From: Bacillota bacterium
GTDB lineage: Bacteria; Bacillota; UBA4882; UBA10575
DNA length: 37,845 bases
Direction: 5' to 3'
NCBI GenBank assembly: GCA_012727535.1
Contig: JAAYGU010000050.1
Span: 1 to 37,845, forward strand
The notes beneath the pieces are model-generated. The model made no database searches. It was not told the origin of the DNA and was given only the letters and a program-made list of their open reading frames with translations. Numbering within the stretch: the stretch's first letter is position 1; each line of letters opens with the position of its first letter. Shown in pieces: positions 1 to 10,700 of this stretch. The translations under genes were made by a program, and so were the position numbers.

Positions 1-7
1 TAGTTAC

Positions 8-178
8 CTCTTAAGGTGCCTTTACAGGCTTAATAGGGAAACAGGTGCAAATCCTGTACGGTCCCGCCACTGTGAGAGGGGAGTTATCTTGACCAAAGCC
101 ACTGGCTGGTGCCGGGAAGGCGTCAAGAAGCGATGATCCCGAGTCAGGAGACCTGCCTTAAGTAGTCGCTCGCATAAC
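8..178 (+). promoter_or_regulatory. Cobalamin riboswitch aptamer
   Basis: The RNA binds adenosylcobalamin or a related cobalamin and controls the btuB-tonB-exbB-exbD operon. The conserved core is clear: AAGGTGCC near 13-20, AGGGAAACAGGTGCAAATCC around 37-56, the CGGTCCCGCCACTGTGA block at 59-75, a second GCCACTG at 98-104, GGGAAGGCG around 115-123, and CCGAGTCAGGAGACCTGCC at 139-157. The closing stem P1 pairs CTTAAGG (10-16) with CCTTAAG (156-162). A hairpin followed by a T run lies downstream at 215-249, so the switch most likely acts by premature termination. The operon promoter lies left of the window. Confidence 0.96.
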
Positions 179-214
179 CTACGGACGATAGGGGGTGATG
201 GGTATTTTGCACTC

Positions 215-249
215 AAACCTTTAATCCGCTGTTGGTTAAAGGTTTTTTT
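215..249 (+). terminator. Riboswitch-controlled intrinsic terminator
   Basis: A perfect 10-bp stem, AAACCTTTAA (215-224) with TTAAAGGTTT (236-245), has an 11-nt loop and runs into seven Ts (243-249). It lies between the cobalamin aptamer and btuB and is the natural expression platform: when the ligand is bound, transcription should stop here. No alternative anti-terminator pairing was worked out in detail. Confidence 0.93.
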
Positions 250-311
250 GTGCCAAACAATCCGGTAGACACCCGGTACGAATCTTTAATTTTCAAAGGA
301 GGTTTCTTCAT

Positions 312-2120
312 TTGTTGAAACGTTCATTTATCTGCATACTCCTGCTCGTTCTGCTCTGCACGGTTACTTTTGCAGCCGGAGCGGAGGAAGAAGAGCAGTT
401 TCATCTCGAACTGGTCGTTACTGCCACGAAAATTCCGCAGGAAATTACCGAGGCACCGGGGATGGTTTATACCATTGACCAAGAGGATATAGAAGCTAAC
501 CAGAACAAAACTGTCGCCGATTTACTTACCGACGAAGGTTTTACGATTTCAACTTATGGCGGGGAGGCTAATCAAGCTACCGTCCGGTTGGACAGCTCTT
601 CAGCGGAACAAACACTCATTATGGTTGATGGGATACCGCTCCACGGCGGAACCATGGGGATCATTGATCTGAGTTATTTTCCAGTAACCGGTACCGAAAA
701 GATTGAAGTGGTCAAAGGCCCCTTATCCGCCCTCTATGGTGCCAATGCCCTGGGCGGGGTGGTCAATATTATTCCGAATCTAACCGGGAAACCGGGACTC
801 GGCTTCACCCTGAGCGGCGGTTCCTACCTTTCCGGACGAACCGGTCTTACGCTGATCAGGGAAAACTGGGGAATTGCCATGGGCGGCAGTACCACAGACG
901 GGCATCGCGCCCACTCGGCGACGACCGGCCATTATCTGGCGGTCCAATACAATCCGCTCGACACGCCGGACGGTTTACTCAAAATCTATGGTAGTTACCG
1001 GACGAAATCTGCCCAAATCCCAACAAATCTTTTTTGGCCATCATATGGAAACCAAGATGATCAAAACTTCATTTTTAATCTCACTGGGAAAAAAGAGTTC
1101 GATCATAGTTCCCTAGAGGCCAAACTATCCTACCAAACCTGGGACAACTTCTATGAAACTTTAGACGAAAATTTAATCGTCACCGAACAGGATCGCCACC
1201 TCACCTCCCGGTTAGGCACTGATCTGACTTACCGGCTCGAAAGAGGCACTCACCGCTTCCTGGCCGGATTAGACTTTAACTATGATACTACAGACAGCAC
1301 AGCCACCGGTTTTCACCGACGGCGTGGGATCGGCCTCTATCTCCAGGACTTGTGGGATCTTAACGACTACCTTTTACTCCACTCCGGTGTACGATGGGAT
1401 CGGATCGGAGATTTTCAGCCGGCCCTCTCGCCACGTCTCGGCCTTACCTGGTTTATCAACGACCAGTTCAACCTAGGGGTCAATTACGGAACCGCTTTCC
1501 GGATACCAACCATGAACGATATGTATGGCAAATGGGGAGGAAATCCGGACCTTAAACCGGAACAAGGAAAAAAAGTGGAACTAACCACCAGCTGGCAAAA
1601 AGGAGCATTGACCTTTTCCGCCAATGTATTCCGCTCACTTCTCCGTGATGGAATTGTGTGGGCTGATCCCGATGGCGATGGTACGTTCTTACCAGAGAAT
1701 GTGGAAAAGTTAAAAACTGCCGGGTTTAGTCTGCGTTCTGCGTACAACTGGGGACCAATTATAACCGGCCTCAACTATACATATCTTGACCAAAGGGGTT
1801 GGGATCCCCTTAATGCCGGTTTTACCCGGGATTTAAACTTCTTTGGCCAACACCAGGTAAATCTAAAAGTCCAAGCCAAGTGGGGAAGATTTAGGATAAA
1901 AACCAGAGGCCAAGTGGTGGCTGCGCGCCGTGATGAACGTTTTCTAGACAGCACAATGCCGGATTATTTCCTCCTCTCTACGGCTTTAGACTACCAACTT
2001 GATGAGCATTGTACACTTAACCTGGCACTAGAGAATTTAACCGACACCAAATATGAGATTCAATACGGCTATCCAATGCCGGGCCGGTGTTTCCGGCTTA
2101 ATCTGAAGATCCGGTATTGA
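312..2120 (+). CDS. btuB: BtuB-type TonB-dependent outer-membrane cobalamin receptor
   Basis: This is an outer-membrane gated channel that imports cobalamin with energy passed on by TonB. The 602-residue product starts at a TTG, eight bases after AAAGGAGG (296-303). Residues 1-24 form a signal peptide. A TonB-box-like stretch, LELVVTATK, follows near residues 32-40. The plug domain occupies roughly 40-155, with the typical IMVDGIPL and EVVKGPLSALYGANALGGVVNIIP-like signature. The rest is the beta barrel, ending in an aromatic residue (LKIRY) as outer-membrane proteins do. The length matches BtuB. The cobalamin riboswitch directly upstream makes cobalamin or a cobinamide-like corrinoid the likely substrate. 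The gene starts an operon with tonB, exbB and exbD. No btuC, btuD or btuF for inner-membrane uptake is present in the window. Confidence 0.95.
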   Translation: MLKRSFICILLLVLLCTVTFAAGAEEEEQFHLELVVTATKIPQEITEAPGMVYTIDQEDIEANQNKTVADLLTDEGFTISTYGGEANQATVRLDSSSAEQTLIMVDGIPLHGGTMGIIDLSYFPVTGTEKIEVVKGPLSALYGANALGGVVNIIPNLTGKPGLGFTLSGGSYLSGRTGLTLIRENWGIAMGGSTTDGHRAHSATTGHYLAVQYNPLDTPDGLLKIYGSYRTKSAQIPTNLFWPSYGNQDDQNFIFNLTGKKEFDHSSLEAKLSYQTWDNFYETLDENLIVTEQDRHLTSRLGTDLTYRLERGTHRFLAGLDFNYDTTDSTATGFHRRRGIGLYLQDLWDLNDYLLLHSGVRWDRIGDFQPALSPRLGLTWFINDQFNLGVNYGTAFRIPTMNDMYGKWGGNPDLKPEQGKKVELTTSWQKGALTFSANVFRSLLRDGIVWADPDGDGTFLPENVEKLKTAGFSLRSAYNWGPIITGLNYTYLDQRGWDPLNAGFTRDLNFFGQHQVNLKVQAKWGRFRIKTRGQVVAARRDERFLDSTMPDYFLLSTALDYQLDEHCTLNLALENLTDTKYEIQYGYPMPGRCFRLNLKIRY

Positions 2121-2131
2121 GGTGAGTCCCA

Positions 2132-3127
2132 ATGTTCGCCCGGGCTTTAATCATTTCCCTCCTCCTCCATCTGCTCCTCTTTGCTCTAAGCGAAGCAGGA
2201 TTATTTGCTATTTGTCTTCGCCCACCGACGGTCCCCCCCACCGAACCGTCCCGGCGGGTTATAAACCTGGTTGAGCCCTTGAGCTTCGCCGCGGCTGCGG
2301 AGGAGGAGAACCCGGTCGTCACCGCACTACCGCCGGGCGCAAAAACGGTCCACCAATCCGTTGACGATTTAAAGCCCGAGTGCAAACCTGACCCACCCCT
2401 CAATGAGCGGGTAAAAAAAGAAAAAGAAGAAAAAGGGCCGGTTTCTCCTGTCCTTACACCGGCCCCCGCTTCTCTTCCACCAACCGAAGATAATGAAGTT
2501 GTCCCTGAAGATAATGCAGTTCTCCCTTTGTTGCCAGCGCAGTTACCGATTGAAGCGCCGCCGTTACTTGAGCCTACCCCACCCATCTCACCCCCGCCCA
2601 CTGAATCCGTTAATACCTCTCCGTTACCGGAAGGGGCCATGGCCGAAGGAGAGGAACAACCGGAGAGAAGGGATGCATTGGTTGATGAAGCGGGAATTCG
2701 GGTGGGCAATGTACCGGGGACGATTCTTGGACAAGAAGAGCCCGGTGAGTTCGACCTGAATCCCGTCATCCCCACCGCGCTAGGGGCTGTGGAGCAATTA
2801 GAGGTCGGAGGCGTGCCTGACCTTGCTTCCTCTGCCTTAGAGAGCACCCCGTCAACCGGCCCGGTCCAACTCTACCATCCTGCTCCGGTCTATCCCCGCC
2901 AAGCCCGGCGCCGGGGCTGGGAGGGTACGGTTTGCCTGGAAGCCGTGATTAATCGGGAGGGTCAAGTGGTGGCAGTGGCCATCACCGCCTCTTCCGGCTA
3001 TGAGCTGCTCGATCAAGCGGCATGCCAAGCGGTCGAAAAGTGGCGTTATACCTGGCCGGCTGGGGAAACGGCCCTGCCGGATGAGTATTTAATCACGATT
3101 AAAATAAGCTTTCAACTGGAGGAGTAA
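2132..3127 (+). CDS. tonB: TonB energy-transducing protein
   Basis: TonB spans the periplasm and carries energy from the ExbB-ExbD motor to outer-membrane receptors. The 331-residue protein has one N-terminal membrane segment (about 4-22), a long middle region rich in Pro and Glu (about 30-200, with PPTVPPTEPSRR and similar stretches) and a C-terminal TonB domain (about 250-331) with the typical YPRQARRRGWEGTV and ASSGYELLDQAA motifs. The start ATG lies 11 bases after btuB, behind AGGTGAG. Its position between btuB and exbB suggests a TonB devoted mainly to B12 uptake. The middle linker is unusually acidic, and I could not assign any domain to residues 200-245. Confidence 0.93.
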   Translation: MFARALIISLLLHLLLFALSEAGLFAICLRPPTVPPTEPSRRVINLVEPLSFAAAAEEENPVVTALPPGAKTVHQSVDDLKPECKPDPPLNERVKKEKEEKGPVSPVLTPAPASLPPTEDNEVVPEDNAVLPLLPAQLPIEAPPLLEPTPPISPPPTESVNTSPLPEGAMAEGEEQPERRDALVDEAGIRVGNVPGTILGQEEPGEFDLNPVIPTALGAVEQLEVGGVPDLASSALESTPSTGPVQLYHPAPVYPRQARRRGWEGTVCLEAVINREGQVVAVAITASSGYELLDQAACQAVEKWRYTWPAGETALPDEYLITIKISFQLEE

Positions 3128-3129
3128 AG

Positions 3130-3573
3130 ATGTACCTACTTGAACAGGGCGGCTTTTTTATGTGGCCTTTACTGGTCTGCTCCGTCTTAATGGTCGCCAT
3201 TATCCTGGAGCGCTTTTATGTTTTCACTGCTTATATGAAAAAACCTCTCATCTCGTACGAAACACCACAGTTAACCTTAGAGACCCTGCGCCAGCGCCTC
3301 ATTATGCTCAGCACCATTATTACCATCGCTCCCATGCTCGGGCTCTTAGGTACGATCTCCGGTTTAATGAAATGTTTCCAATTGTTGGGCACCCAAGCCA
3401 CCCTCTATAATCCACAGGAAGTTAGTCTGGGCATTAGTGAAGCCCTGCTCACAACGGGTGTGGGCTTGGTTATCACAGTGGTCGGCCAGATCTTTTATAA
3501 TTATTTCCTCGCCCGCTTGGAGCGCTATGTTAACCAGTATAACTTCCAGCTCGAGGAGGGTACAGATGAATAA
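3130..3573 (+). CDS. exbB: ExbB/MotA/TolQ-family proton channel subunit (short)
   Basis: ExbB forms the inner-membrane proton channel that powers TonB. The 147-residue product has three membrane segments (about 10-30, 58-78 and 107-130) and the family motifs MWPLLVCSVLMVAIILERF near the start and APMLGLLGTISGLMKCFQ around 63-80. It is much shorter than E. coli ExbB (about 240 residues) because the first cytoplasmic loop is nearly absent; short forms of this kind occur elsewhere in the MotA/TolQ/ExbB family. The ATG follows GGAGGAG, which overlaps the tonB stop. The gene overlaps exbD by eight bases, so the two are translationally coupled. Confidence 0.9.
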   Translation: MYLLEQGGFFMWPLLVCSVLMVAIILERFYVFTAYMKKPLISYETPQLTLETLRQRLIMLSTIITIAPMLGLLGTISGLMKCFQLLGTQATLYNPQEVSLGISEALLTTGVGLVITVVGQIFYNYFLARLERYVNQYNFQLEEGTDE

Positions 3574-3982
3574 GCAGCCACTTACCCTCCGACCTCTCCC
3601 GAAACCGCGCGTGGAGATCATCAACCTGATTGATGTCATGATCACGCTGGTCGCTTTTTTCATGCTGACCACCGTCTTTGCCGGGCAACAACAACGCTTG
3701 GAGCTCGAGCTGCCGGTCGTCCAGAACGGGGAAAACAACTCATCCCTGCCGGAACACGAGTTTCTCCTGATTGAACTGGATCACGACGGAAAGCTCTCTT
3801 TTCAGGGTTCACACCTCCCGCTTTCCGCCCTCCCCACAGTGCTCCTGGAACAAAACCCGGCCCGGCCGGTCCTACTTAGAGCAGACCGTACCTGTTCTTA
3901 TGAAATGGTGGTCTGGATCATTGACCAGCTCAAGGCGGCCGGCCTTAACCAACTGGCGCTGGAAGTCAAAACAGCCCAATAA
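3566..3982 (+). CDS. exbD: ExbD/TolR-family proton channel subunit
   Basis: ExbD is the partner of ExbB. It has one membrane helix and a periplasmic domain and couples proton flow to TonB. I chose the ATG at 3566 because GAGGAGGG (3553-3560) sits at ideal distance and the resulting 138-residue protein has the normal ExbD N terminus. A short basic cytoplasmic part is followed by INLIDVMITLVAFFMLTTVF, whose Asp near residue 23 matches the essential membrane Asp of the family. The C-terminal part has the usual ExbD fold, ending in LALEVKTAQ. The gene overlaps exbB by eight bases and is the last of the operon. No strong terminator was seen downstream, only a short GCGCTG/CAGCGC hairpin at about 3991-4012 without a T run. 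Confidence 0.92.
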   Translation: MNKQPLTLRPLPKPRVEIINLIDVMITLVAFFMLTTVFAGQQQRLELELPVVQNGENNSSLPEHEFLLIELDHDGKLSFQGSHLPLSALPTVLLEQNPARPVLLRADRTCSYEMVVWIIDQLKAAGLNQLALEVKTAQ

Positions 3983-4066
3983 GTTTTTCCGCGCTGCGAC
4001 TCCCTCCAGCGCCGCCTCATTCTATGCTAAACTTAGGAATCATTCTTCTGTTTGCAGCTGCCTTTC

Positions 4067-5680
4067 TTAATAGAGGCGCTCATAATATTCTTCAACCATC
4101 CGCTGAGCGGAAAACTGCCACTGGGTCTGTTCGATACTGGCGCGCATCATCCTTTCCCATTGATCACGCCGCTCGTAATAAGTGGGGATAATATCCTGCA
4201 GTAAGGTATGGTAAAGGGACTCTAGATCCACCCGATCCTGTCCCGGCCCCTCGTATCCATCACCAATCTGCCAGCCGGTTTCCCCCGGCTGATACCCTTC
4301 CGGCCACCAGCCGTCTAAGACGCTGAAGTTTAGAACCCCGTTCATCGCCGCCTTCATCCCCGAAGTCCCGCTGGCTTCCATCGGCCGGCGCGGGTTGTTG
4401 AGCCACAGATCACAGCCGCGAGTCATGAGTCGTCCGATCTTCATATCATAATCCTGTAGAAAGACCACGCTCTCCGGATAACGCGAGGCGACCTTATAGA
4501 TCCGGGCCACAATCTTCTTCCCCTCCAGGTCATTGGGGTGCGCTTTCCCGGAGAAGATCAACTGGAGTTGCCCCGCTTGGAGTAAAGGATCGATCACCTC
4601 CAGCTCCCGAAAGATCAGATCGCCTCTTTTATACGCGGCCATGCGCCGGGCAAACCCGATCGTCAATACTTCTTCCTTTAAACGTACCCCATTCCTTAGG
4701 TAGACCTCCTCCAGCAATTTCCGTTTCGCCGCCAGATGGGCGGCCCAGAGACTTTCTCCCCGCTGATGGGCGAGGACAATCTCCGGATCCTGCCAGGTCC
4801 CGCGGTGCACCCCATTCGTTATCCCAATGATCTCCGGAGTTCCTGTTACCCCACTCCACATTTTCCGCGCGGTCGCCGCATGTAATTGGGCCACGGCATT
4901 AACCTTTTTCGCCAGTCGCATACTGGCCACCGTCATGTTAAAAGGCTCGCCCCCCAGCTTTAACATTTCGCCATAGGTCAAGCCGTTGTAGGCACCCATA
5001 TACCTAAGCAGTTCATGCTCATGGACCTCATTCCCCTCTTTCACTGGGGTATGGGTCGTGAAGACAATCTGTTCCCTGGTTGCCGCCAAGTCCTCCTCAA
5101 ATGAGATGCCCTGTACTTCAATCTTTTCCCGTAGTAACTCGATTCCGGCCGGCAGCGGGTGACTATCATTAAAATGATAGACATCCACCTTAATCCCCAG
5201 CTTCTTGAGGGCACGAATCCCCCCGATCCCCAGGATCATCTCCTGGGCAATCCGCTCTTCGGAAAACCACCCATAGAGCTGCCCGGTGATCAAGCGGTCA
5301 TTATTCTCCGGGAGGTTGGCATCGAGGAGATACAAGGGCGCGTTCTGGAAAGCCGTACACTTCCAGACCTTGCAACGGACCTGCCGCCCCCTGATCCGCA
5401 CCTGGACGGTCACGCCGGTATCCTCCAAAAAGTCATACTGATATTCGTGATAGCAATCGTAGACCAGACCATGGCGGTCAATTAACTGCCGGGTATACCC
5501 CTGACGCCAGAGGATCCCGACGCCAACTAAGGGATAGTTGCCATCCCGGGCGGCTTTCAAGATATCTCCGGCAAGAATCCCCAAACCTCCCGAGTAGATC
5601 TTAAAATCCTCATGGAGACCAAATTCCATACAAAAATAGGCAACTCTAGGCCGTTTGACTTCTTCAACCCCGATTTTCAC
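4067..5680 (-). CDS. glgP: Alpha-glucan phosphorylase, short GT35 type
   Basis: The enzyme splits alpha-1,4-glucans with phosphate to give glucose 1-phosphate, using pyridoxal phosphate, in the cytoplasm. The 537-residue protein belongs to the short GT35 branch (about 550 residues, as in Thermotoga AgpA) rather than the roughly 800-residue GlgP type. Recognisable blocks are SGGLGILAGD near 30-39, HFNDSHP near 169-175, the FARRMAAYKR block near 343-352, and RRPMEASGTSGMKAAMNG near 431-448, in which Lys443 should hold the cofactor. The GTG start follows GGAGGGG with eight bases between and overlaps the TGA of the upstream GH13 gene by four bases, which indicates translational coupling. The pair probably breaks down storage glucan or maltodextrins. 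Confidence 0.93.
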   Translation of the reverse strand: MKIGVEEVKRPRVAYFCMEFGLHEDFKIYSGGLGILAGDILKAARDGNYPLVGVGILWRQGYTRQLIDRHGLVYDCYHEYQYDFLEDTGVTVQVRIRGRQVRCKVWKCTAFQNAPLYLLDANLPENNDRLITGQLYGWFSEERIAQEMILGIGGIRALKKLGIKVDVYHFNDSHPLPAGIELLREKIEVQGISFEEDLAATREQIVFTTHTPVKEGNEVHEHELLRYMGAYNGLTYGEMLKLGGEPFNMTVASMRLAKKVNAVAQLHAATARKMWSGVTGTPEIIGITNGVHRGTWQDPEIVLAHQRGESLWAAHLAAKRKLLEEVYLRNGVRLKEEVLTIGFARRMAAYKRGDLIFRELEVIDPLLQAGQLQLIFSGKAHPNDLEGKKIVARIYKVASRYPESVVFLQDYDMKIGRLMTRGCDLWLNNPRRPMEASGTSGMKAAMNGVLNFSVLDGWWPEGYQPGETGWQIGDGYEGPGQDRVDLESLYHTLLQDIIPTYYERRDQWERMMRASIEQTQWQFSAQRMVEEYYERLY

Positions 5681-9108: not shown

Positions 9109-9146
9109 AAGCAAAACACCCCGTAAACTTACGGGGTGTTTTGCTT
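9109..9146 (-). terminator. Long hairpin at the end of the SCIFF maturase gene
   Basis: Two perfect 18-base arms (9109-9126 and 9129-9146) with almost no loop contain AAAACACCCCGTAA and its complement. The hairpin includes the stop codon and last five codons of the maturase gene. On the minus strand no long T run follows, but the arms themselves end in TTTTGCTT; on the plus strand CTTCTTTT follows. It likely ends or stabilises the SCIFF transcript before pit. Confidence 0.7.
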
Positions 9147-10511
9147 CTTTTCCTGCTCGGCAATTTGGGCGGCGTTTAAGGCTAACGCGCATTCCAGTCT
9201 TTTTTGGAGTAAACGGCAGGCTAAAGTATCGGGTTTTAAAATGTCACCATTGGCAAAATAAGCATGGGCATGACAACCGCCGCTACAATAGTACCGCGCC
9301 CAACACGTACTGCACCCTTCCTTCGCATAGAATCGCGCCCGGCCAAAGACCGCTCGGATCTCTGGTGCGGTAATCCCGGAAAAAACATCGCCCACGATAA
9401 ACTGTTTCTCTCCGACAAACTGATGGCAGGGGTATAATTCGCCCTGAGGCGTCACCGCCAGGTAATCAAATCCAGCCCCGCAGCCCAAAAGCCGCTTCGG
9501 TAAACAGGGCCCTTTCTCCAGGTCCACGACAAAGTGGAAGAAGCGGAAAGGATCCCCCGCCTGGTGTCTTTCCCAATAAAAGGCGGCCAACCGGTCGTAT
9601 TCTTCATCGATCCGGGGTAGATCTTCCTCCCGGAGGGCATAGGGGAGATCCGGGGCACAAACCACCGGTTCAATTGAGATCGAGCGCATCCCCAGCTCGT
9701 AAAGGTGCTTGACATCTTCACTAAAGTCCAAGTTAAACCGGGTAAAGGTCCCGCGCACATAGTAATTTATCTCCGGAAAATCGCGGATCACCTCTTGGAT
9801 CCGTGGTACGATCCGCTGATAGGTGCCCTTGCCCCGCATCCGGTCATTTACGGCTTCCCGCCCGTCCAAACTTAAGACTAAACCCATCCGGTGCTGGCGC
9901 AAGAATTCCAAAAGTTCGCGGCTTAACCCGAGAGTATTGGTGGTCAAGGTAAAATGCATCTTCTTGCCCACCGCTGCCGCTTTTTCCTCTCCGTAAGGCA
10001 CTAAGTCCAACAGCAGTTCCGTATTGAGGAGCGGTTCTCCGCCAAAGAAATCCACTTCCAAGTGGTCCTTCGCTCCAGAGTTGGCACAGAGAAAGTCAAT
10101 CGCGGCCCGTCCGACCGCCGGCGGCATAATACTCCGGTCCCCACCGAAAGCGCCACCGCCCGCAAAACAATAGACACACCGTAACTGGCAATCATGGGTC
10201 AGATGAAGACAGAGCGCTTTCAGCTCCGGTTTTAAATTAAAGACCGGTTCTTCCAAAAAAGGATCCCTTTCTGGAAGGTAACCCGCTTGTTTTAAAGCCG
10301 CCAGTTCTTCTTCTACTTCCTCTCTAACCGCCTGCGAACAGCGGTTCACCAACAATTGCCGGTATTCAGCAGCCTTCTCCGGTTGGGCTTCAGCCCGGAG
10401 CCGCCAAAAAGTCGGTTCGTCAATCCGAAAAAGCGAATTGGAAGGGGTGTCAAACAGATAATACTGATCAGAAAAAGAGAAAACATGCCAATTCATCTTC
10501 TCACCATCCAT
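9129..10511 (-). CDS. scfB: SCIFF maturase, radical SAM/SPASM protein
   Basis: This enzyme installs thioether cross-links in the six-cysteine SCIFF peptide encoded just upstream (10563-10700), using S-adenosylmethionine and iron-sulfur clusters. The 460-residue protein has an N-terminal peptide-recognition region (about 5-80), the radical SAM motif Cys108-x3-Cys112-x2-Cys115, GGEP near 157-160, and a SPASM domain with Cys344, Cys362, Cys400, Cys403, Cys409, Cys413 and Cys432. Length and cysteine spacing match SCIFF maturases of Clostridia. The first ATG (10511) has a poor ribosome binding site. The ATG five codons later (10496), giving MNWHVFSF, resembles the family N terminus better and may be the true start. 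A terminator hairpin lies between peptide and maturase genes, so less maturase than peptide is expected. Confidence 0.95.
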   Translation of the reverse strand: MDGEKMNWHVFSFSDQYYLFDTPSNSLFRIDEPTFWRLRAEAQPEKAAEYRQLLVNRCSQAVREEVEEELAALKQAGYLPERDPFLEEPVFNLKPELKALCLHLTHDCQLRCVYCFAGGGAFGGDRSIMPPAVGRAAIDFLCANSGAKDHLEVDFFGGEPLLNTELLLDLVPYGEEKAAAVGKKMHFTLTTNTLGLSRELLEFLRQHRMGLVLSLDGREAVNDRMRGKGTYQRIVPRIQEVIRDFPEINYYVRGTFTRFNLDFSEDVKHLYELGMRSISIEPVVCAPDLPYALREEDLPRIDEEYDRLAAFYWERHQAGDPFRFFHFVVDLEKGPCLPKRLLGCGAGFDYLAVTPQGELYPCHQFVGEKQFIVGDVFSGITAPEIRAVFGRARFYAKEGCSTCWARYYCSGGCHAHAYFANGDILKPDTLACRLLQKRLECALALNAAQIAEQEKKQNTP

Positions 10512-10562: not shown

Positions 10563-10700
10563 CTATTTCTCGCAAACCTGGTTCCCTACGGTGCAAGAAG
10601 TTTTGCAGGCCGATTGACAAGAATTCGCACAGCGCCCACAACCACCGGTTTGGACCGTCGATTGCAATTTCTTTAAAACCACCGGTTTAATATGCTTCAA
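10563..10700 (-). CDS. scfA: SCIFF six-cysteine precursor peptide (ranthipeptide)
   Basis: This is a 45-residue precursor of a ribosomally made peptide with thioether links, the SCIFF (six cysteines in forty-five residues) family that is nearly universal in Clostridia. The protein begins MKHIKPVVLKKLQSTVQTGG (the leader) and the core holds Cys21, Cys24, Cys28, Cys32, Cys36 and Cys43. The leader is very close to the family consensus. The start is a TTG (10698-10700) with GGAGGG six bases upstream; the TTG start and small size make the gene easy to miss. It lies directly upstream of its radical SAM maturase, behind a near-consensus promoter and a leader that can fold. The biological role of mature SCIFF is not settled. 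Confidence 0.97.
   Translation of the reverse strand: MKHIKPVVLKKLQSTVQTGGCGRCANSCQSACKTSCTVGNQVCEK

Follow-up and report, generated by a model that had tools for sequence, protein, structure and literature searches.

In Escherichia coli, tonB and exbBD lie outside the operon led by the cobalamin riboswitch, and the motor that they encode serves many receptors. Here we describe a locus that includes the motor genes: a cobalamin (vitamin B12) riboswitch, a terminator, a btuB-like receptor gene, tonB, exbB and exbD follow one another at the start of contig JAAYGU010000050.1 (assembly GCA_012727535.1, Bacillota bacterium). The whole contig, 37,845 nucleotides long, was analysed and is called the window. 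In the labels used below, C stands for contig, G for genome and L for a locus in the comparison set; the window is contig C9.

Related arrangements have been described in other bacteria. In Caldithrix abyssi, btuB is led by a riboswitch, and a TonB-ExbB-ExbD complex and BtuCDF are predicted (PMC5317091). In the btuB2 operon of Anabaena, a cobalamin riboswitch governs a polycistronic message for the receptor and BtuFCD (PMC10878165). Halothermothrix orenii has an outer membrane and a TonB/ExbB/ExbD set for which no receptor was detected and whose function was left open (PMC2626281). The proteome of Halanaerobium congolense is reported with mention of TonB-dependent transporters for B12 and iron (PMC6544827), so that a B12 role in Halanaerobium has already been suggested in print. 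A 2025 survey, which cites earlier work on TonB in diderm Firmicutes, presents Negativicutes as the one group of diderm Firmicutes in which Ton systems were detected, and terms complete Ton systems in Clostridia likely non-functional (PMC12204202). A literature search that covered few subscription papers did not turn up any description of riboswitch-btuB-tonB-exbBD operons from diderm Bacillota.

The best explanation for the locus is, in our view, that a diderm member of the Bacillota has an operon for corrinoid uptake which B12 represses, and we give this reading a probability of roughly 0.78. In this view the BtuB-Ton machine is conventional, and the way in which its regulation is packaged is unusual. 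The unusual side would be that the sole active outer-membrane importer detected in the genome, motor included, is a single B12-controlled operon.

The operon, its receptor and its leader

The riboswitch aptamer occupies positions 2 to 174 of the forward strand and matches the RF00174 model from end to end (model positions 1-189 of 189; 121 bits, with a gathering score of 31.5 bits; E = 4.8e-30). No other Rfam family reached its gathering score in the window, and an RF00174 search of the host genome found one cobalamin riboswitch, the one before btuB. Four genes follow on the same strand. The receptor gene (312-2120; 602 amino acids, TTG start) encodes a Plug domain (PF07715, 2.9e-20) and a barrel (PF00593, 5e-43), both above cut-off, and a Ton-box-like ELVVTA is visible by eye near the N-terminus. 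The product of tonB (2132-3127; 331 amino acids) combines a TonB_C domain (5.3e-20), a Pro-rich middle and, by eye, an S-x3-H motif in the N-terminal membrane helix. A short form of exbB (3130-3573; 147 amino acids; MotA_ExbB, 2.4e-23) gave a nearly full-length match to TIGR02805 (exbB2) that, at 57.9 bits, stayed below the cut-off of 135.35. Last comes exbD (3566-3982; 138 amino acids; ExbD, 4.6e-20), which also appears as a listed open reading frame with an upstream start (3437-3982); its membrane Asp is kept, and the residue was present in 5 of 5 aligned ExbDs. The genes are separated by 11 and 2 bases and then overlap by 8, and a Shine-Dalgarno-like (SD-like) sequence precedes each of them (by eye). 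Receptor, TonB, ExbB and ExbD are thus adjacent and all above Pfam cut-offs, and the compact arrangement proposed in a first-pass annotation of this DNA, from RF00174 through the hairpin at 215-245 to the four genes of 312-3982, stands.

The identity of the receptor was also approached through its predicted fold. An AlphaFold model built from 11 sequences (predicted local distance difference test, 76.6; predicted template modelling score, 0.78) was used in a fold search; the E. coli BtuB:TonB structure came first, and B12 receptors filled 14 of the first 15 rows. A fold nearest to BtuB is joined by genetic links to B12, namely the riboswitch and the association with btuFCD in relatives. With these three lines taken together, corrinoid is our best call for the substrate.

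Between the aptamer and btuB lies an intrinsic terminator hairpin of 12 pairs with a T-run (215-245, forward strand). When the leader was folded up to the 3′ arm of the terminator, an antiterminator was predicted at 187-226, where 187-203 pairs with 211-226 and excludes the terminator; the fold of the full leader contains the terminator plus an upstream hairpin. Terminator-like patterns are not in excess in positions 1-4100 (6, with a shuffle mean of 4.8), and the case for the terminator therefore comes from where it sits in the leader and from its presence in relatives too, not from pattern counts. In seven related expression platforms, the early pairing was clear in three (the window, L027 and L030), variant in two (L028 and L029) and absent in two (L031 and L032), while the full fold contained the terminator in five and an alternative in two (L027 and L029). 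These predicted folds fit a cobalamin-triggered stop of transcription, short of proof. Expression platforms vary within one family: terminators are seen in the window, L027, L028 and L030, and an SD-covering hairpin in others (L033, L034 and L035; by eye).

The host genome and its second Ton set

The host assembly (2.23 Mb in 150 contigs) is 98.1% complete, with 2.0% estimated contamination. Profile searches detected BamA (an Omp85 protein with POTRA domains) followed by OmpH, as well as LpxC, which is present in all 17 genomes sampled from the host's order. These genes for lipopolysaccharide (LPS) and outer-membrane assembly bear out the earlier view of the host as a diderm Bacillota. The SCIFF genes and the assignment to Bacillota stand; the host is an anaerobic, LPS-type diderm related to Hydrogenispora, a genus filed at NCBI under Bacillota, incertae sedis, and lies outside Clostridia proper. 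The SCIFF maturase gene (9129-10511, reverse strand) scored 502 bits against TIGR03974, for which the curated cut-off is 425. It adjoins a Cys-rich open reading frame of 45 amino acids (10563-10700, reverse strand) that, by eye, resembles the SCIFF peptide. Four matches to B12-binding domains were found in the genome; they include a corrinoid protein of the methyltransferase type and two radical-SAM-like proteins, and all fall short of the curated cut-offs.

A Plug search of the genome detected one receptor, with the proviso that an unrecognised plug or an assembly gap could hide others. The Ton machinery is present twice, as a second TonB/ExbB/ExbD set lies on contig C89; further tonB genes in the genome are possible. 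An ExbB of the long type, with open frames of 207-248 amino acids, occurs in all 17 genomes of the order, four receptor-less ones included. In the 11 genomes read out, again with the four receptor-less ones, it stands beside ExbD in all and beside TonB in 10, the remaining case being G003, whose contig ends at the long ExbB. Since its ExbB persists in four genomes without a detected receptor, the second set looks like housekeeping equipment rather than a shared uptake motor. On C89, the receptor-less set is followed by a gene for a large secreted-looking protein (L022:2734-7355) with a weak CARDB match, whose identity is 69-78% across seven genomes of the family and 38% in G016; in the host genome an SLH-domain protein comes next. 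The C89 set and its neighbours may constitute an envelope system that is driven by Ton but has no receptor.

The same contig carries btuF-, btuC- and btuD-like genes side by side (PF01497, PF01032 and PF00005: binding protein, FecCD permease and ATPase). They are 61-68% identical to the riboswitch-led btuFCD sets of G014 and G015; the RF00174 search found no cobalamin riboswitch at the C89 genes. The inner-membrane importer had been described as missing, which is true of the window and is rejected for the genome.

Conservation within and beyond the order

Exactly one receptor was found in 13 of the 17 genomes of the order, and none in four. A cobalamin riboswitch lies upstream of the receptor in all 13 (the window and 12 of 12 other loci), although it is cut by the contig end in L031 and L032. 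As for the receptor-less genomes, G003, G007 and G008 contain no cobalamin riboswitch, and G015 contains one, before btuFCD. Apparent pairs of riboswitches in G002 and G006 were rejected as one element present at two contig ends, with 100% identity over 93 and 127 bases. In 12 of the 13 receptor-bearing genomes one contig carries btuB and, after it, tonB; the match in G001 is weak (2e-5) and lies in a stretch with Ns. In the other genome, G013, the contig ends inside btuB, and tonB opens contig C149, where ExbB and then the window's next genes are also found. The short ExbB occurs in nine of the 17 genomes, all nine receptor-bearing. At the level of sequence, the parts of the module, their order, their single copies and their conservation are shown.

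Two observations concern individual loci. In G016, the receptor frame (L026:4441-6461) is broken in two, with parts of 506 and 268 amino acids, and either a frameshift or a fault in the assembly accounts for the break. The receptor of G001 (L037), a genome of the sister genus (g2), groups with that of G009 (L036), from a further genus (g3), with a support of 100 and apart from other g2 receptors, which suggests an exchange of the module.

A single-protein search yielded no named relatives of the receptor; an alignment search did find relatives, with 567 loci confirmed and the best 80 of them kept, among which L038-L041, L044, L045 and L047 repeat contigs of the order. Fourteen named loci were scanned for RF00174, which sits immediately ahead of btuB in 11 (L042, L043, L046, L048, L049, L050, L051, L053, L054, L056 and L072) and ahead of a btuFCD-btuB run in L079. 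Among the loci listed, TonB, ExbB and ExbD follow btuB in L042, L043, L048, L050, L051, L053, L056, L057, L075 and L079, and TonB alone in L049 and L072. L079 and L042 have btuFCD, btuB, tonB, exbB and exbD as consecutive genes that follow cobalamin riboswitches. The records of Halanaerobiales (L048-L051, L053, L056, L075 and L079) include seven named strains; the riboswitch-btuB-Ton layout recurs in Halanaerobiales, cultured species included. Genomes reached through related loci contain one receptor in 11 cases out of 13 and two in the others. In L072, a metagenome-assembled genome (MAG) titled Aneurinibacillus carries riboswitch-btuB-tonB; Aneurinibacillus is a monoderm genus, and the title may be wrong. 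An Atribacterota MAG (L057) carries btuB-tonB-exbB-exbD, and its receptor and ExbB cluster with their counterparts from Halanaerobiales.

A sample of 299 Bacillota genomes gave a wider view. A receptor was detected in 34, exactly one in 27 and from 2 to 15 in seven. A riboswitch lies directly upstream in 20 of the 27 single-receptor genomes; nine of the 27 belong to the order and are all riboswitch-led, and the other 18 contribute 11 (G045, G053, G101, G108, G133, G166, G216, G226, G244, G296 and G309). By coordinates, G216 is L043, G166 is L072 and G226 is L048. In 10 of these 11, tonB is in the same run (in G309 the contig ends), and exbB and exbD are there too in five.

In a quick tree of BtuB sequences, from which a truncated sequence (L029) and the seven loci repeating order contigs were left out, the order, related MAGs and Halanaerobiales fall in one set (support 98). 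The same set takes in one Atribacterota sequence and six from Bacteroidota or Ignavibacteriota, and because of these non-Bacillota members a transfer between phyla at some point is likely. In the ExbB tree, computed without L037 (Ns), the module and housekeeping ExbBs of the order group together against the Halanaerobiales modules; a single clade of all module ExbBs was not rejected (p-AU, approximately unbiased test, 0.179).

Interpretation and comparison with known systems

From these data we infer the ligand of the switch and its direction, the substrate, the co-transcription of the genes and the pairing of motor and receptor in the following scheme. When cobalamin is scarce, the predicted antiterminator would allow read-through of the leader, and one transcript would supply BtuB, a TonB of its own and a proton motor of short ExbB and ExbD. 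This motor would spend proton-motive force on pulling the BtuB plug, so that corrinoid reaches the periplasm, and the unlinked BtuFCD of C89 would carry it over the inner membrane. With plentiful cobalamin, the aptamer would fold, the terminator at 215-245 would form, and receptor and motor would be turned off together. The second TonB-ExbB-ExbD set would perform another envelope task.

Several observations weigh against this scheme. The riboswitch begins at base 2 of the contig and no promoter is visible at the edge; any upstream promoter would therefore be outside the assembly. Promoter-like sites are as frequent as expected (3, with 3.0 expected), and internal promoters are possible. A terminator of the window's type was not seen by eye in G010-G012, where an AGGAGG before the start codon falls within a conserved hairpin region (by eye); these two features of the sequence suggest that cobalamin control may act there on the translation of btuB. 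On the side of the receptor, TIGR01779 (BtuB) is the best NCBIfam match yet reaches only 205.5 of the 599.7 bits of its cut-off, and sequence profiles place CirA slightly above BtuB, almost equal. Both results would suit a receptor for another ligand (heme, a siderophore or a cobalt chelate), with a riboswitch that reads B12 status indirectly. The invariable riboswitch before the receptor in the order, the runs with btuFCD in relatives and the fold search headed by BtuB make such a ligand quite improbable. Contamination is harder still to credit: the number of contigs and the contamination estimate would allow C9 to come from another bacterium, but G013, of the same genus, has the same module, divided between two contigs and followed by the same genes (one for a glucan phosphorylase and an amylase-like one), a synteny on which we reject contamination, and the SCIFF genes are among the window's other genes.

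A more substantial objection is that the receptor imports corrinoids with a motor that is neither dedicated nor fully B12-controlled, either because tonB-exbBD has an internal promoter or because the housekeeping ExbBD drives BtuB too. The C89 set could serve BtuB, and four of the five receptor-bearing g2 genomes (G002, G004, G005 and G006) have btuB-tonB without exbBD in the operon, as do, in the vicinity of tonB, five of the 11 riboswitch-led single-receptor genomes outside the order. On the other hand, tonB is kept in the operon in 12 of 13 genomes of the order and 10 of 11 outside it (the remaining one at a contig edge), every genome with the short ExbB also has a receptor (9/9), and the genes are tightly spaced. 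We regard such a motor as unlikely overall and keep to the reading of a B12-repressed corrinoid uptake operon. The first-pass annotation had proposed a motor devoted to corrinoid uptake and itself under B12 control. One Plug receptor, short of assembly gaps, one riboswitch and motor genes inside the riboswitch operon speak in its favor; the second motor and the four g2 operons speak against it, and the absence of exbBD from the latter means that a dedicated motor is not universal. That proposal is also weakened by the tonB of C89, which does not, however, track the receptor.

An extension of this reading, to which we give even odds, is that diderm Bacillota, the many-receptor lineages aside, use TonB-dependent import in effect for one substrate, corrinoids, taken up by the single receptor, with TonB and often ExbBD in the cobalamin riboswitch regulon and a separate, receptor-less Ton set for envelope work. 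Exceptions argue against it. No RF00174 match was found in L052 and L062 (2 of the 14 named loci scanned), nor any riboswitch in the flank read of the single-receptor genomes G057, G169, G179, G231 and G305 or within the flank of G143, which has btuC and btuD (by similarity), btuB, tonB, exbB and exbD in a row; G120, with a weak receptor match, was left out of the count. In the seven multi-receptor genomes, the best receptor is riboswitch-led in one (G250) and not in six. The receptors of G179 (L222:144-3266) and G305 (L223:626-3673), of 1040 and 1015 amino acids, look SusC-like by eye and are perhaps on Bacteroidota contaminant contigs.

If the extension is true, B12 sufficiency shuts off all TonB-dependent import in those lineages, and the receptor-less Ton set of H. 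orenii is accounted for. Two motors can be compared naturally within the order: one is linked to the B12 receptor and comes and goes with it, the other has no receptor and persists, and through this comparison the role of the second can be tested. Relatives of Hydrogenispora that carry LpxC have conserved Ton operons led by riboswitches, and cultured Halanaerobiales have similar loci; this suggests functional systems that have been missed or filed as Clostridia. These loci disagree with the statement that Ton systems of diderm Firmicutes are confined to Negativicutes (PMC12204202), and the Clostridia systems of that survey may belong in part to the lineages described here.

The E. coli BtuB-TonB-ExbBD-BtuFCD system is alike in receptor fold, riboswitch before btuB, Ton motor and BtuFCD, and differs in that the host operon includes the motor genes and only one receptor was found in the host genome. 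The operon described in C. abyssi consists of btuB and btuF, without a motor (PMC5317091), and Anabaena has two BtuBs and depends for uptake on an unlinked tonB3 (PMC10878165). Veillonella parvula shares TonB-dependent transport in a diderm Firmicute, but nine TonB systems were counted there (PMC5491611), as against one receptor in the host. The Ton set of H. orenii (PMC2626281) resembles the receptor-less second set of the host's order. The loci of Halanaerobiales, such as Halanaerobacter jeridensis (L079) and Halanaerobium saccharolyticum (L050), share riboswitch, btuB, tonB, exbB and exbD in one run; unlike the host, they encode an ExbB of the long form (205-226 amino acids versus 147), and in L079 btuFCD is joined to the run.

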